The translations under genes were made by a program, and so were the position numbers. Shown piece by piece: positions 3,346 through 21,545 of a DNA stretch of 26,435 nt (position 1 is the first letter of the stretch; each line of letters starts with the position of its first letter). The notes below the pieces were generated by a model. The model searched no databases, had not been told where the DNA came from, and saw only the letters and a list, made by a program, of their open reading frames with translations. Source of the DNA: a virus; the IMG/VR virus record IMGVR_UViG_3300044681_000864, positions 1-26,435 of that record; one strand, written 5' to 3'.

Positions 3346-3942
3346 ATGCATAGAATAACGGTAATAGAAAATTTTATTTTGCCAGAAGACGCAAAAACAC
3401 TTATAGATCAGCAACTTGATCCAAACTCAGAAAGAAATCCATATCCAGAATACTACTCTGCCAGATATGGGGGAACTTCTTTACCCTACAATAAGATAGT
3501 TCAAGATATAATGATCAAATATGGACATAAGGCAAACTCTATGCACAAGTCTTTAAATGGTTATAAAAATGATATTTATGTGTTCAAGGGCTTTGGCTCA
3601 CATTGGACAACTGGATCAAAGGGTGGCCTACACATAGATGCTCAAGATCCAGAACCTTGGATTGAATGGAGCACTGTAATATATCTTAACCACGAATCAG
3701 AATATGATGGGGGACTAATATATTTTCCAAACCAAGAATTTGTTTATAAACCTAAGCAGTATTCTGCAGTATTTTTCCCAGGCGCTGGTAGCGAATACAT
3801 ACATGGAATAACAACTGTAACTCGTGGTAATAGGTTTACATCACTATATATGCACACAAGCGACCCAACACATGTAGATCCAGAGTATCATCCTGGTCAA
3901 AATAAATATAGAGCATTGGAGTTTCCTCTTGTCAGACAATAA
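3346..3942 (+). CDS. 2-oxoglutarate/Fe(II)-dependent oxygenase (1 of 6)
   Basis: A 198-aa prolyl-4-hydroxylase-like oxygenase. Iron ligands are H96 and D98 (GGLHIDAQD) and H153 (EYIHGITTV); R163 in GNRFTS is placed to bind the carboxylate of 2-oxoglutarate. YLNHESEYDGGLIYF corresponds to the conserved strand before the second histidine. Such enzymes hydroxylate proteins, small molecules or nucleic acids using O2 and 2-oxoglutarate; the substrate here is unknown. It has its own promoter and AGGAGG site and overlaps the next oxygenase by 14 nt. The sequence is only distantly like the other five in the window, so these are not recent copies. Confidence 0.9.
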   Translation: MHRITVIENFILPEDAKTLIDQQLDPNSERNPYPEYYSARYGGTSLPYNKIVQDIMIKYGHKANSMHKSLNGYKNDIYVFKGFGSHWTTGSKGGLHIDAQDPEPWIEWSTVIYLNHESEYDGGLIYFPNQEFVYKPKQYSAVFFPGAGSEYIHGITTVTRGNRFTSLYMHTSDPTHVDPEYHPGQNKYRALEFPLVRQ

Positions 3943-4603
3943 CTTACAGCATGAGGTGCTAGACCTAGGTCTTGTTTATTATAAAAATATACTAAAAAAT
4001 CCAAAAGAGTTGATAGAGCGTATTGAAAATTTAGATAAAAGATATCATGAAGAAAAGCCACAGGACTACGAAACATCTGTGCGCCCGTGGATACCTTGGA
4101 AAAATGATAATGGATCTGAAGAAATTTTTAATTATCAAAAGTTTATTCCACAAGTAAAACATATAGCGCCATGGGATAAATATAAAGACGAACAAAACTT
4201 TATTTCTTCAGAATTATTTGGGGCATTAGACATAACATTAGAGCACTACTCTACATCTTTATACCCCTTTGCTAAAAAAAATATAAAGTCTCGTGAACAA
4301 ACGATGCATTTACTTAGATATGACAAAACTGGTCATTTGCCAGCACATCAAGATCAAGGAGTAAGCACAAGAGTTTTATCAGTTCTTCTTTATCTAAATG
4401 ATGATTACGAAGGAGGAGAAATAGAGTTTAGACACTCTAATATAAAAATAAAACCAGAGCCAGGAAGCGTATTATTTTTCCCTTCTAACTTTTTATATGT
4501 TCACGAAGTATATCCTGTAACTAAAGGTCCTAGATACGCATTACCAAATTGGTATCACAATGTAGCGGGGGATCAATTTAGAAATTCGACTGGCCAAGAA
4601 TGA
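3929..4603 (+). CDS. 2-oxoglutarate/Fe(II)-dependent oxygenase (2 of 6)
   Basis: A 224-aa oxygenase of the prolyl-4-hydroxylase type. Ligands: H140 and D142 (PAHQDQG), H192 (YVHEV), R202 (GPRYAL). YLNDDYEGGEIEF is the standard subfamily strand. The start is a TTG: there is no nearer ATG, and GGAG at 3918-3921 lies 7 nt upstream, inside the preceding gene. The stop overlaps the start of the carbamoyltransferase (ATGA), so the three genes are likely translated together. Substrate unknown. Confidence 0.9.
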   Translation: MSDNNLQHEVLDLGLVYYKNILKNPKELIERIENLDKRYHEEKPQDYETSVRPWIPWKNDNGSEEIFNYQKFIPQVKHIAPWDKYKDEQNFISSELFGALDITLEHYSTSLYPFAKKNIKSREQTMHLLRYDKTGHLPAHQDQGVSTRVLSVLLYLNDDYEGGEIEFRHSNIKIKPEPGSVLFFPSNFLYVHEVYPVTKGPRYALPNWYHNVAGDQFRNSTGQE

Positions 4604-10923: not shown

Positions 10924-11119
10924 TTTTAGAGGAATACCAACAACTGCATGTCCAATATGTGGCTGCAAAATTTTTAATATAAAGGCAGAGTTTGACCCAA
11001 CAGATTATGAGATAGGATTGTACTATTTGGACGGGAATTGTTCACAATGTGGTACACTATTAACAATACCTACACCGCTTGATCATCCAAGCAGAAAGAG
11101 AAACTATGGACTGGAATGA
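10913..11119 (+). CDS. Zinc-ribbon hypothetical protein
   Basis: A 68-aa protein with CPICGC and CSQCG, two CxxC knuckles about 30 residues apart, forming a zinc ribbon. ATG 10913 is preferred over 10907 since AGAGG sits 6 nt before it. It overlaps both neighbours. No specific function can be assigned. Confidence 0.72.
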   Translation: MTVDFRGIPTTACPICGCKIFNIKAEFDPTDYEIGLYYLDGNCSQCGTLLTIPTPLDHPSRKRNYGLE

Positions 11120-11693
11120 ACTAGCAACAGGAATAGTTGTTGTAAATAATATTGGAAACGGTGCTAAGTATATAGAAGAAATTGAGTCGTATGTTTCTAG
11201 CGGATCCCTTTCTTGGGTACCACATAATCAAAAAAAGATAGACGAAGACCTTAATCGTAAGGCAATGAATACAATGTATATTAAAAATGTTAGGCGATGG
11301 GGTGTTGGTAAAATGCCTAGCGGAGAGCAGATGTTACATGAACAAATTTTTGATAGATTTGAAAGAGATTTTAAGTTGGTATATGAAAAATATATACAAG
11401 ACTTTAAAGTTCCTTGCTCACAAAAAGAAGATTATGAGATTTTAAAATATGGTCCAGGAAACTTTTTTATTGATCATATAGATGATGGTCTATTTATGAC
11501 ACGAAAAATTTCTATAGTTTATTATTTTAATGATGAATATACGGGCGGAGAAATGGTCTTTCCTAGGTTTGATTTAGAAATTAAACCGAAGGCAAATCAA
11601 CTACTTTTATTCCCTGCAAATTATATATATAATCATAATGTAAATGAGGTTACGGAAGGCACCAGATATTCTATGGTGAACTGGTTAAAATAA
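11106..11693 (+). CDS. 2-oxoglutarate/Fe(II)-dependent oxygenase (3 of 6)
   Basis: A 195-aa prolyl-4-hydroxylase-like oxygenase. Ligands: H124 and D126 (IDHIDDG), H177 (YNHNV), R187 (GTRYSM). YYFNDEYTGGEMVF is the subfamily strand. ATG 11106 is chosen because an upstream in-frame ATG (11079) would only add residues from inside the zinc-ribbon gene. Its stop overlaps the XapX start (TAATG). It lies among small housekeeping-like phage genes instead of other tailoring enzymes. Confidence 0.9.
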   Translation: MDWNELATGIVVVNNIGNGAKYIEEIESYVSSGSLSWVPHNQKKIDEDLNRKAMNTMYIKNVRRWGVGKMPSGEQMLHEQIFDRFERDFKLVYEKYIQDFKVPCSQKEDYEILKYGPGNFFIDHIDDGLFMTRKISIVYYFNDEYTGGEMVFPRFDLEIKPKANQLLLFPANYIYNHNVNEVTEGTRYSMVNWLK

Positions 11694-12120: not shown

Positions 12121-12158
12121 TTTAAAAAAAATAGAGGGGCCGAAAGGCCCCTTTGTTT
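12121..12158. terminator. Bidirectional rho-independent terminator
   Basis: A 7-bp GC-rich stem, AGGGGCC (12135-12141) and GGCCCCT (12146-12152), closes a GAAA tetraloop. A T-rich tract follows on the plus strand, and the run of A upstream gives a T tract on the minus strand. It lies between the convergent ends of the holin-like gene and a minus-strand oxygenase and can serve both. Confidence 0.93.
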
Positions 12159-12814
12159 TATGCTCTTAAGAAATATTCTAAATTAACTTCATAAGGAAAG
12201 TCTGTTAATTCGTGTCGTCTTTCTCTTTCCTCTTCAGTTATCTCACATCCAAAGAACACTATAGTGTATCTAGTGTTTCCACCAGTCTTTGCATGTATCT
12301 TATGTTGATATGGATATGCTGATGGAAAACATAAAAACTGTCCAGCCTTCGGCTTATATTTAATTCCAAAATGAATAAACTCTAATTCTCCGCCTTCGTA
12401 ATCGTCATTAGGATAGTAAACAAAAGAAACAGTTCTTGGTGTTCCGTAAGAGTCGTCTGGATGCATGGAAAAAAATTCTCCATCTTCAAACTTTGTTATT
12501 CTGTACGACTCTCTTGTTTTGGGGGCAATATCCCACATTGAGCAATATGAGTCTACTATCTCTTCAAAGGCTTCTGTCATTTCTTTGCTTTGATAAATCC
12601 ATGTTGTACTTGCTTTTTTGCCTATTTCCTCGTCATAATAATCTTCTCTTTCAAACTTGCCAGAATCTTCTAACTCTTTCATTAGTTTCATTGAATCTGG
12701 AAATACGTTATCATAAACATGAATTGCAGGTCCAAGTTCTGTAAATTTAAACTCATTGCCCTTGCGACTTACTGTAATGCCACGGGCTTTTTGTTCCATT
12801 TTATTTTTGTCCAT
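12158..12814 (-). CDS. 2-oxoglutarate/Fe(II)-dependent oxygenase (4 of 6)
   Basis: A 218-aa prolyl-4-hydroxylase-like oxygenase. Ligands: H118 and D120 (SMHPDDS), H171 (YQHKI), R182 (NTRYTIVF). YYPNDDYEGGELEF is the subfamily strand. It stands alone on the minus strand with its own promoter (-10 at 12834-12839) and a leader carrying AAGGAG before the ATG. The promoter is divergent from that of the next plus-strand cluster and shares a palindrome with it. Substrate unknown. Confidence 0.92.
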   Translation of the reverse strand: MDKNKMEQKARGITVSRKGNEFKFTELGPAIHVYDNVFPDSMKLMKELEDSGKFEREDYYDEEIGKKASTTWIYQSKEMTEAFEEIVDSYCSMWDIAPKTRESYRITKFEDGEFFSMHPDDSYGTPRTVSFVYYPNDDYEGGELEFIHFGIKYKPKAGQFLCFPSAYPYQHKIHAKTGGNTRYTIVFFGCEITEEERERRHELTDFPYEVNLEYFLRA

Positions 12815-13575: not shown

Positions 13576-14250
13576 ATGGAAATTAAATTAGACCCTATTT
13601 CAGAAAAAATTGGAACTGGCATAAATAATATTAGAATTTTTAAAAACTTTATAGAAGAAGAAGACAGGCTTGCATTAATAGAATATTGTAATAGTAAGGC
13701 TACACAAAAAACTGGAAATATTTTTTATCCAATACCAAACTCAAATGAATTAAGGCACTTACATATAAAATATAGCAAAAAAATGTTTGCAAATATATCA
13801 GATTTTTATAATGATAAGTCACCAATTAGAAAACAAGATTTCCCAGAAAATGATTACGATACCTCTTGGAATCCAGATATGGAGAGTGGTAAGTATATTG
13901 CATCATTTCTGATTCACCCTACTGGATCCTTTATGTTTCCACACGTTGATATAGTTGGATATGTTCAAAAAGAAGGAGAGAATGTTCCCGATCATTTAAA
14001 TAAATGGTCTGGACATTTATCTTCAGTGATATACCTTAATGATAATTATGAGGGCGGAGAACTTTACTTTCCAGATCATAACCTTGAAATTAAACCAGAG
14101 GCTGGCGATTACATTACTTGGCCTGGAAATAGATGGTACCAGCATGGAGTAAAGGAAGTTACAGGTGGACTAAGATATACGTTATCCACATGGGTAAGAT
14201 TTGAAGAGGCATATGGAAAGGAAATATATTCATATGGCAGTGAAAAATAG
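13576..14250 (+). CDS. 2-oxoglutarate/Fe(II)-dependent oxygenase (5 of 6)
   Basis: A 224-aa prolyl-4-hydroxylase-like oxygenase. Ligands: H123 and D125 (FPHVDIVG), H190 (YQHGV), R200 (GLRYTLS). YLNDNYEGGELYF is the subfamily strand. GAGG lies 5 nt before its ATG, and the gene starts 2 nt after the dehydrogenase-like gene. It overlaps the RsmI-like gene by 17 nt, tying the oxygenase to a methylase/sulfotransferase group. Substrate unknown. Confidence 0.92.
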   Translation: MEIKLDPISEKIGTGINNIRIFKNFIEEEDRLALIEYCNSKATQKTGNIFYPIPNSNELRHLHIKYSKKMFANISDFYNDKSPIRKQDFPENDYDTSWNPDMESGKYIASFLIHPTGSFMFPHVDIVGYVQKEGENVPDHLNKWSGHLSSVIYLNDNYEGGELYFPDHNLEIKPEAGDYITWPGNRWYQHGVKEVTGGLRYTLSTWVRFEEAYGKEIYSYGSEK

Positions 14251-20666: not shown

Positions 20667-21350
20667 ATGAATTTTGTATATACATGCAGAAATGGTGAAA
20701 ATGAAGAGTTAAGGTACTCCATTAGATCTTTATATAAAAATATCGAATCTCCTCAGATTTGGGTAGTAGGTGGAAGACCAAGTTGGTATATTGGTAATTA
20801 TATAAGGATAAATCAGCATCAGACTAAACATAAAAATGTAAGAAATAATATGAAAAAAATGACAACATCTCAAGAAATTCCAAATGATTTTATATTGATG
20901 AATGATGATTTTTTTATCATGCAGCCTATGGAAGATATACCATATTTTCATGGGGGTAAATTAATAAATAAAGTTAATAACTTTCAAACTCATGCGCCAA
21001 AGTCTCCATACACTAAGATGTTATCGGATACATATAAAAAATTAATATCGCTAGATATCAAAGATCCCCTTGATTATGCAATCCATGTTCCAATAAAGGT
21101 TAATAAAGAAAAATTAAGCAAAGTAATTTATCCAGCCTACTCCGTTAGGACAATGTATGGGAATATATATAATGTTGGCGGTACAAAAATGGAAGATATA
21201 AAGGTACATCAAGACAGGAAATGGGCAAAATCTTTTGATTTTTTAAATAAAAATACTATGTTTTTATCAAGCAATGATAATTCTTTTGAAACATTATTTA
21301 ATAGTATTTTTAAAGAAGAACTTAAACAAAAAAGTCCGTTAGAAAAATAG
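20667..21350 (+). CDS. Stealth-like glycosyl/sugar-phosphate transferase
   Basis: About 227 aa, leaderless from ATG 20667. NEELRYSIRSLYKNI and IWVVGGRPSW, then FILMNDDFFIMQPMEDIPYF, recall the conserved regions of Stealth proteins, which transfer hexose-1-phosphate in capsule synthesis; the NDDFF block carries the catalytic acidic residues. It is shorter than typical Stealth proteins (over 300 aa). Its stop lies just before convergent tRNA genes. A role in altering a surface polysaccharide is an inference. Confidence 0.72.
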   Translation: MNFVYTCRNGENEELRYSIRSLYKNIESPQIWVVGGRPSWYIGNYIRINQHQTKHKNVRNNMKKMTTSQEIPNDFILMNDDFFIMQPMEDIPYFHGGKLINKVNNFQTHAPKSPYTKMLSDTYKKLISLDIKDPLDYAIHVPIKVNKEKLSKVIYPAYSVRTMYGNIYNVGGTKMEDIKVHQDRKWAKSFDFLNKNTMFLSSNDNSFETLFNSIFKEELKQKSPLEK

Positions 21351-21423
21351 TACCCCTGGTTGGGTTCGAACCAACGCTTGCACGATTTTAAGTCGTGTGC
21401 CTCTACCACTGGGCTACAAGGGC
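21351..21423 (-). tRNA. tRNA with TAA anticodon (Leu), lacking a long variable arm
   Basis: Folded on the minus strand: acceptor GCCCTTG/CAGGGGT (with G-T and T-G pairs), anticodon stem CACGA/TCGTG with loop CTTAAAA, so the anticodon TAA reads UUA. T arm is GTTGG/CCAAC with TTCGAAC, discriminator A. It is only 73 nt: the variable loop is 5 nt (CAAGC), whereas bacterial tRNA-Leu normally has a long variable arm. No CCA encoded. Confidence 0.88.
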
Positions 21424-21427
21424 AAAG

Positions 21428-21501
21428 TAGAGCAGGTAGGACTTGAACCTACGATAGCCGAATTATGAGTTCGGGGCCTTGACCAACTTGGCTACTGCTC
21501 C
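21428..21501 (-). tRNA. tRNA with CAT anticodon (Met or lysidine-type Ile)
   Basis: Folded on the minus strand: acceptor GGAGCAG/CTGCTCT, anticodon stem CCGAA/TTCGG with loop CTCATAA (anticodon CAT), T arm GTAGG/CCTAC with TTCAAGT, discriminator A. The three G-C pairs of an initiator anticodon stem are absent. AUA codons are very frequent in these genes, so an Ile(AUA) tRNA is plausible, but elongator Met cannot be excluded. It is 4 nt upstream of the TAA tRNA, so they are co-transcribed. Confidence 0.9.
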
Positions 21502-21515
21502 CTATTATGTAATTA

Positions 21516-21545
21516 AGTATATAGCCTAGATGCTATATATGTCAA
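21516..21545 (-). promoter_or_regulatory. Sigma70-type promoter of the tRNA pair
   Basis: On the minus strand TTGACA (21540-21545), 18 nt, then TATACT (21516-21521), predicting a start about 8 nt before the first tRNA. It is the only clear -35 box noticed in the window; the protein genes have only -10 boxes. It overlaps the stop region of the upstream gene (21547). Confidence 0.78.

Follow-up and report, generated by a model that had tools for sequence, protein, structure and literature searches.

The window analyzed here, meaning the whole stretch of DNA under study, is a 26.4-kb virus record without a larger assembly. It harbors two neighboring tRNA genes on the minus strand, one of which carries a leucine anticodon on a body that lacks the long variable arm. 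The features of the locus are as follows.

21351..21423, minus strand: class I tRNA-Leu(UAA) gene, 73 nt (ARAGORN, Rfam, fold)
21351, minus strand: discriminator A73; the 3' CCA is not encoded
21376..21380, minus strand: 5-nt variable loop CAAGC (class I), with C48 opposite G15 as the Levitt pair (fold, covariation)
21388..21390, minus strand: anticodon UAA (positions 34-36) in the loop C32 U33 U A A A37 A38 (sequence, fold)
21399..21414, minus strand: D arm with a 3-bp stem of G10-C25, C11-G24, and C12-G23 (fold, D-arm comparison)
21428..21501, minus strand: tRNA with CAU anticodon, annotated as tRNA-Met, directly upstream of tRNA-Leu(UAA) (ARAGORN, Rfam)
21516..21545, minus strand: promoter-like TTGACA-18-TATACT, 11/12, just upstream of the tRNA pair (consensus match only)

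Structure of the tRNA gene and its surroundings

The original prediction had described a 73-nt gene with a UAA anticodon and a 5-nt variable loop, with which ARAGORN, Rfam, and the fold agree. ARAGORN predicts tRNA-Leu(taa) at 21350-21423 on the minus strand, and the Rfam tRNA model (RF00005) matches 21351-21423 with 61.5 bits (E 2.7e-11, cut-off 29 bits). The minimum-free-energy fold is a full cloverleaf with 7 bp in the acceptor stem, 3 bp in the D stem, and 5 bp each in the anticodon and T stems; the folding energy by itself is unexceptional (z -0.78). Past its stem, the D arm (21399..21414) takes on a C13/A22 mismatch, A14, and the bases G18 G19 U20 A20a G21. Stem pairing is kept across 48 distinct related virus genes, in which 97.4% of the cells are paired and 19 of the 21 pairs show two-sided changes, far exceeding shuffled and slid controls. 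The covariation is present in all stems and additionally in the Levitt pair 15-48, which is either A-U or G-C in these genes. The tRNA gene in the window is intact.

Class II tRNA-Leu is characterized by a variable arm of at least 10 nt, and the loop of 5 nt places the window tRNA outside of it. The 5-nt loop, the C12-G23 pair, the C13/A22 mismatch, and A73 fit the “class I tRNA-Leu lineage of phages and actinobacteria,” a group that is defined in the present analysis.

The tRNA with the CAU anticodon, which resembles the tRNA-Met of Microbacterium phages, is probably co-transcribed with tRNA-Leu(UAA). Further genes of the window encode glycosyltransferases, a Nol-like carbamoyltransferase, and several 2OG-Fe(II) oxygenases. 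One neighboring protein has matches that are confined to actinophages, another is matched chiefly in haloviruses, and the carbamoyltransferase finds its matches chiefly in cyanophages. An actinobacterial host would fit the actinophage-only protein and the Microbacterium-phage-like tRNA-Met, with the other genes pointing elsewhere. The terminase family PF03237 was looked for in relatives, and none was found. Within its 26 kb, the window harbors four or more genes for 2OG-Fe(II) oxygenases (3929-4603, 11079-11693, 12158-12814, and 13576-14250), which are accompanied by two sulfotransferase-like genes and the Nol-like carbamoyltransferase.

Class I tRNA-Leu(UAA) in viruses and bacterial chromosomes

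More than 100 virus contigs carry class I tRNA-Leu(UAA) genes, as do cultured phages and bacterial chromosomes. A scan of IMG/VR with one pattern yields class I tRNA-Leu(TAA) in at least 120 virus stretches. Many such genes in related phages had been named in the original prediction as a finding that would speak against it, and other phages do carry many of them. ARAGORN, applied to the scan loci and phage records, reports at least 101 short Leu(TAA), at least 19 short Leu(TAG), at least 17 short Leu(CAA), and at least 4 short Leu(GAG) genes. In a second virus scan, the pattern was blind to the variable arm; among the 120 matches listed, the class I search had already yielded 73, and the 47 new ones contained 33 class II and 5 class I UAA tRNAs.

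The cultured phages that carry a class I tRNA-Leu(UAA) infect Synechococcus/Prochlorococcus, Bacillus, and Rhodococcus. The gene is annotated as tRNA-Leu in cyanophage P-RSM6, the Synechococcus phages Sf-FR1 and S-CREM1, Bacillus phage P59, and Rhodococcus phage Trina, where it adjoins an 86-nt Leu(CAA). In S-SRM01 it is present but unannotated. Among the uncultured viruses, the contig IMGVR_UViG_3300031951_000060 (L065) harbors a tRNA that is nearly identical and has matching genes on its flanks; the carbamoyltransferase gene of this contig (L324) lies at about the same distance from the tRNA as in the window. An assembly artefact is ruled out by the near-identical genes on other contigs, among which L065 has matching neighbors. 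Short-loop tRNA-Leu(TAA) genes with a D arm that is class II-like or otherwise different were additionally observed in L266 (a 76-nt Leu-taa), L283, and L293, suggesting further independent losses of the arm.

A scan of GTDB genomes places class I tRNA-Leu(UAA) in bacterial chromosomes, chiefly of Actinomycetota and mostly as lone genes. The actinomycetotal carriers are Curtobacterium, Nocardioides, Lentzea, Saccharothrix, Actinomadura, Propionibacteriaceae, and Actinomycetaceae; the gene is also found in Myxococcales, Verrucomicrobiales, and others. The original prediction had assigned bacterial tRNA-Leu to class II, which is the textbook statement (PMC9976931), yet class I genes exist in bacterial chromosomes.

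The two classes were counted in bacteria with a class-neutral pattern, GACRCG being too strict for actinobacterial class II genes. In 118 sampled Actinomycetota genomes, only class I was seen in 27, only class II in 59, both in none, and neither in 32. In the genomes picked for carrying class I, it is the only UAA-anticodon tRNA found in 74 out of 78, a tally that is a reading of match lists with many drafts and a pattern that can miss unusual D arms. Both forms are found in two of these 78 genomes (Aureisphaera galaxeae and an alphaproteobacterial MAG), and another two are ambiguous. The order sampled around one MAG displays the same split between class I and class II, with one genome harboring both. 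In many actinobacteria, no UAA-anticodon tRNA other than the armless one was detected, and this form thus appears to work as the normal UUA reader of these cells.

Several class I Leu tRNAs with differing anticodons are assembled in tRNA arrays on the bacterial contigs L135, L155, and L145/L158/L243, which belong to alphaproteobacterial, Mogibacterium, and Flavobacteriaceae assemblies. These arrays are probably mobile elements or phages.

Meaning of UUA and recognition by LeuRS

UUA makes up 279 of the 596 leucine codons in the window (47%). The UUA sites were compared with homologs in 138 columns, counting only homolog residues that are not themselves UUA-coded. The strongly conserved columns at UUA consist of L (39), I (11), M (5), V (3), and K (2), and the best single residue for the sites according to BLOSUM is Leu. 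Of 21 UUA sites in the IleRS of class-I-only bacteria, the conserved ones are L (11) and F (1), and 65 of the 108 residues that align to UUA in the rpoB of such bacteria are Leu. The original prediction had considered that the tRNA might be charged with another amino acid, which would recode UUA. This is not supported by the comparison of UUA codons, which lie on leucine sites both in the window and in the IleRS and rpoB of class-I-only bacteria; recoding was rejected, and the genetic code is most simply read as unchanged. A screen of 250,000 genomes likewise describes no UUA reassignment in part of its published account (PMC8629427). The rpoB genes L398, L397, and L400, which stem from uncultured actinobacteria with class I only, strongly avoid UUA (1 per gene versus about 20 UUG) in spite of a GC content near 50%.

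One class I body is found with the anticodons UAA, CAA, UAG, and GAG. For each TAA gene, the three closest bodies bearing another anticodon were taken; of the 256 counted, 219 are class I Leu. Four Leu anticodons on one body imply that the charging synthetase must ignore bases 34 and 36, a property of LeuRS, SerRS, and AlaRS. SerRS requires the long arm and disfavors A73, and AlaRS requires G3:U70. In the window tRNA, pair 3-70 is C3-G70. The window tRNA thus has A73 but neither a long arm nor G3:U70, which leaves LeuRS among the synthetases that are blind to 34 and 36.

The D arm carries a signature of its own. The set C12 C13 A22 A73 is present in 108 of 127 class I Leu versus 1 of 533 other class I tRNAs, with the TAA set having been picked by patterns in which some of the D arm is predetermined (positions 8, 13, 14, and 73 were left free in the virus TAA set) and the CAA, TAG, and GAG sets not being so fixed. 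Class I and class II Leu have the 13-22 mismatch with A22, U20-A20a-G21, A14, and A73 in common and are distinguished by C12-G23 in class I and G12-C23 in class II. In E. coli, LeuRS relies on A73, A15-U48, G18G19, and A20a of tRNA-Leu and can do without the variable arm, truncated armless versions still being charged (PMC9976931). The window tRNA harbors the E. coli LeuRS determinants A73, A14, G18 G19, and A20a; in place of A15-U48, it has G15-C48. Among the class I TAA genes of viruses, 28% likewise have G15-C48; L204 and L224, both bacterial, share it, and no other UAA tRNA was seen in their genomes.

In trees that were built without the anticodon and the variable arm, phage and bacterial genes are intermixed. 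The class I/II label changes 5 times on the tree, compared to a mean of 35.6 and a minimum of 30 upon shuffling, and the anticodon changes 30 times on the same tree (shuffled mean 38.2). In multi-isotype trees, the nearest other group of the window gene is class I Leu of other anticodons in 9 of 12 cases and class II Leu in 3 of 12; these masked trees do not place it with tRNA-Ile or tRNA-Met.

A home-made isotype score that considers only the body (77% accurate in cross-validation, trained without class I Leu) assigns 8.6 bits to Ile and 5.0 bits to Met/Ile2 for the window tRNA, with Leu outside the top six. A clear Leu isotype score, also named in the original prediction as speaking against it, was thereby not obtained, the nearest isotypes being Ile and Met. 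The score recovers 74 of 80 held-out class II Leu, whereas the members of the class I TAA set are spread over Leu (48), Lys (44), Met (40), and Ile (29). Because no class I Leu entered its training, what it chiefly reveals is a difference between class I and class II bodies.

A host LeuRS that tolerates the armless form had been the other option of the original prediction. At the level of sequence, such tolerance is supported by the body that is shared by four Leu anticodons, by A73 and the D loop, by the trees, and by the bacteria in which the armless tRNA is the sole reader.

Proposed function and relation to known tRNAs

The window gene very probably encodes a functional phage class I tRNA-Leu(UAA) that is charged with leucine by the host LeuRS and reads UUA, leaving the code unchanged. 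In the proposed mechanism, the host LeuRS would charge the phage tRNA with leucine by using A73 and the geometry of the D loop and core instead of the variable arm. The charged tRNA would subsequently read UUA, with wobble on UUG, and would supply UUA decoding to an AT-rich phage in which 47% of the leucine codons are UUA. The supply of UUA decoding for this AT-rich phage is the most likely function.

An identity as an Ile- or Met-type tRNA is very improbable. The body-only score is nearest to Ile and Met, and A73, C4-G69, and C29-G41 of the window tRNA fit Ile, but it lacks U36, one of the main determinants of Ile. Positions 13 and 22 are moreover paired in Ile and most Met tRNAs, and none of these has C12 C13 A22 A73. 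Leu is the best explanation for the UUA sites in the window, and in bacteria with leucine UUA sites, no UAA tRNA was found apart from relatives of the window tRNA. A descent from tRNA-Ile or tRNA-Met via anticodon change, at which the body-only score had hinted, was ruled out by the D-arm signature and by the trees, which put the window gene with class I and then with class II Leu. A human gene gives a precedent for such a descent, as it is a Met-derived Leu-CAA gene that has a Leu anticodon without the long arm (PMC8450103). It differs from the window tRNA in being only seven changes away from tRNA-Met, recent, confined to a single locus, and probably silent, with no conserved family. Decay of a tRNA-Leu that lost its arm in the window phage and became non-functional would agree with the unexceptional single-sequence folding energy and with the one E. 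coli LeuRS position (A15-U48) that differs. It is nevertheless hardly to be expected of a gene with an Rfam match of 61.5 bits, strong covariation among 48 virus relatives, near-identical copies in other contigs (L065 with matching flanks), and a promoter-like site upstream of the tRNA pair.

The remaining alternatives concern the reason for the armless shape. Phages might keep it to escape defenses or toxins that recognize the arm, and not for codon supply alone, which is improbable. To our knowledge, no defense cuts the arm of tRNA-Leu, and actinobacteria carry the armless form as an ordinary gene of their chromosomes, so that escape is not needed as an explanation. In favor of escape, Septu and retron-Eco7 cleave class II tRNA-Tyr in its variable loop, and a phage-encoded tRNA-Tyr whose variable loop differs is resistant (PMC13096335); MenT3 recognizes tRNA-Ser by its long arm (PMC11541572). 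A broader scenario, which we regard as rather unlikely, is that an armless lineage exchanged between phages and bacteria displaced class II as the sole UUA reader in many actinobacteria, the loss of the arm having been favored as an escape from arm-reading nucleases or toxins.

Among the known tRNAs that come closest to the leucine-charged UUA reader proposed here is the bacterial class II tRNA-Leu(UAA), e.g., Streptomyces bldA. Both harbor UAA, A73, A14, G18 G19 U20 A20a G21, a 13-22 mismatch with A22, and a 3-bp D stem, and both read UUA. The class II tRNA has a long arm, G12-C23, and a purine at position 13, whereas the window tRNA has C12-G23 and C13. A Leu anticodon on a class I body is also seen in the short-loop tRNA-Leu(TAG) of the Mycobacterium mucogenicum group, which is located in a mobile tRNA cluster and exists beside a normal class II isoacceptor (PMC6582537). 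Unlike the window tRNA, it has the anticodon UAG, and the report devotes one sentence to it, with no analysis of identity or distribution (PMC6582537). Beyond this report, a search of the openly accessible literature found no other explicit report of a bacterial class I tRNA-Leu. In M. tuberculosis, tRNA-Leu-2, -3, and -5 have long loops (PMC11541572), which implies that other tRNA-Leu are without them there.

According to a review, tRNA-Leu is long-armed everywhere but in animal mitochondria (PMC9976931). The mitochondrial tRNA-Leu(UUR) resembles the window tRNA in its UAA anticodon, its missing arm, and its charging by LeuRS via A73 and A14 (PMC9976931). It differs in belonging to an organelle lineage with a weak anticodon stem, in which the arm was presumably lost independently. 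Arm and anticodon are also mismatched in the nematode nev-tRNAs, of which nev-tRNA-Gly is charged with leucine (PMC4033280). These are the mirror image of the window tRNA, as they carry a long arm on non-Leu anticodons and alter the meaning of the codon, whereas the window tRNA is armless and would keep it.

The armless tRNA-Leu family is widespread, barely described, and not unique to the window phage. Its genes are routinely annotated as tRNA-Leu and their sequences are known; the pattern seems to have gone unremarked in the literature searched. The results indicate that the long-arm rule for the UUA reader fails in about one quarter of the sampled Actinomycetota genomes and in many phages. 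Class I tRNA-Leu are natural substrates for probing the recognition of tRNA by LeuRS, and they bear on UUA-based regulation of the bldA kind. For isotype-based annotation, arm length alone is no proof of codon reassignment or of a pseudogene.

A mirror anomaly was observed in phage tRNA-Ile(TAT) genes, which are class II-like with an isoleucine anticodon, their variable arms spanning 22-25 nt and their D arms being odd (L009:6137-6228, L021:3681-3772, L024:216-307, L047:1406-1494, L072:2425-2516, L090:6556-6647, L095:3800-3890, L103:6252-6346, and L120:3669-3759).
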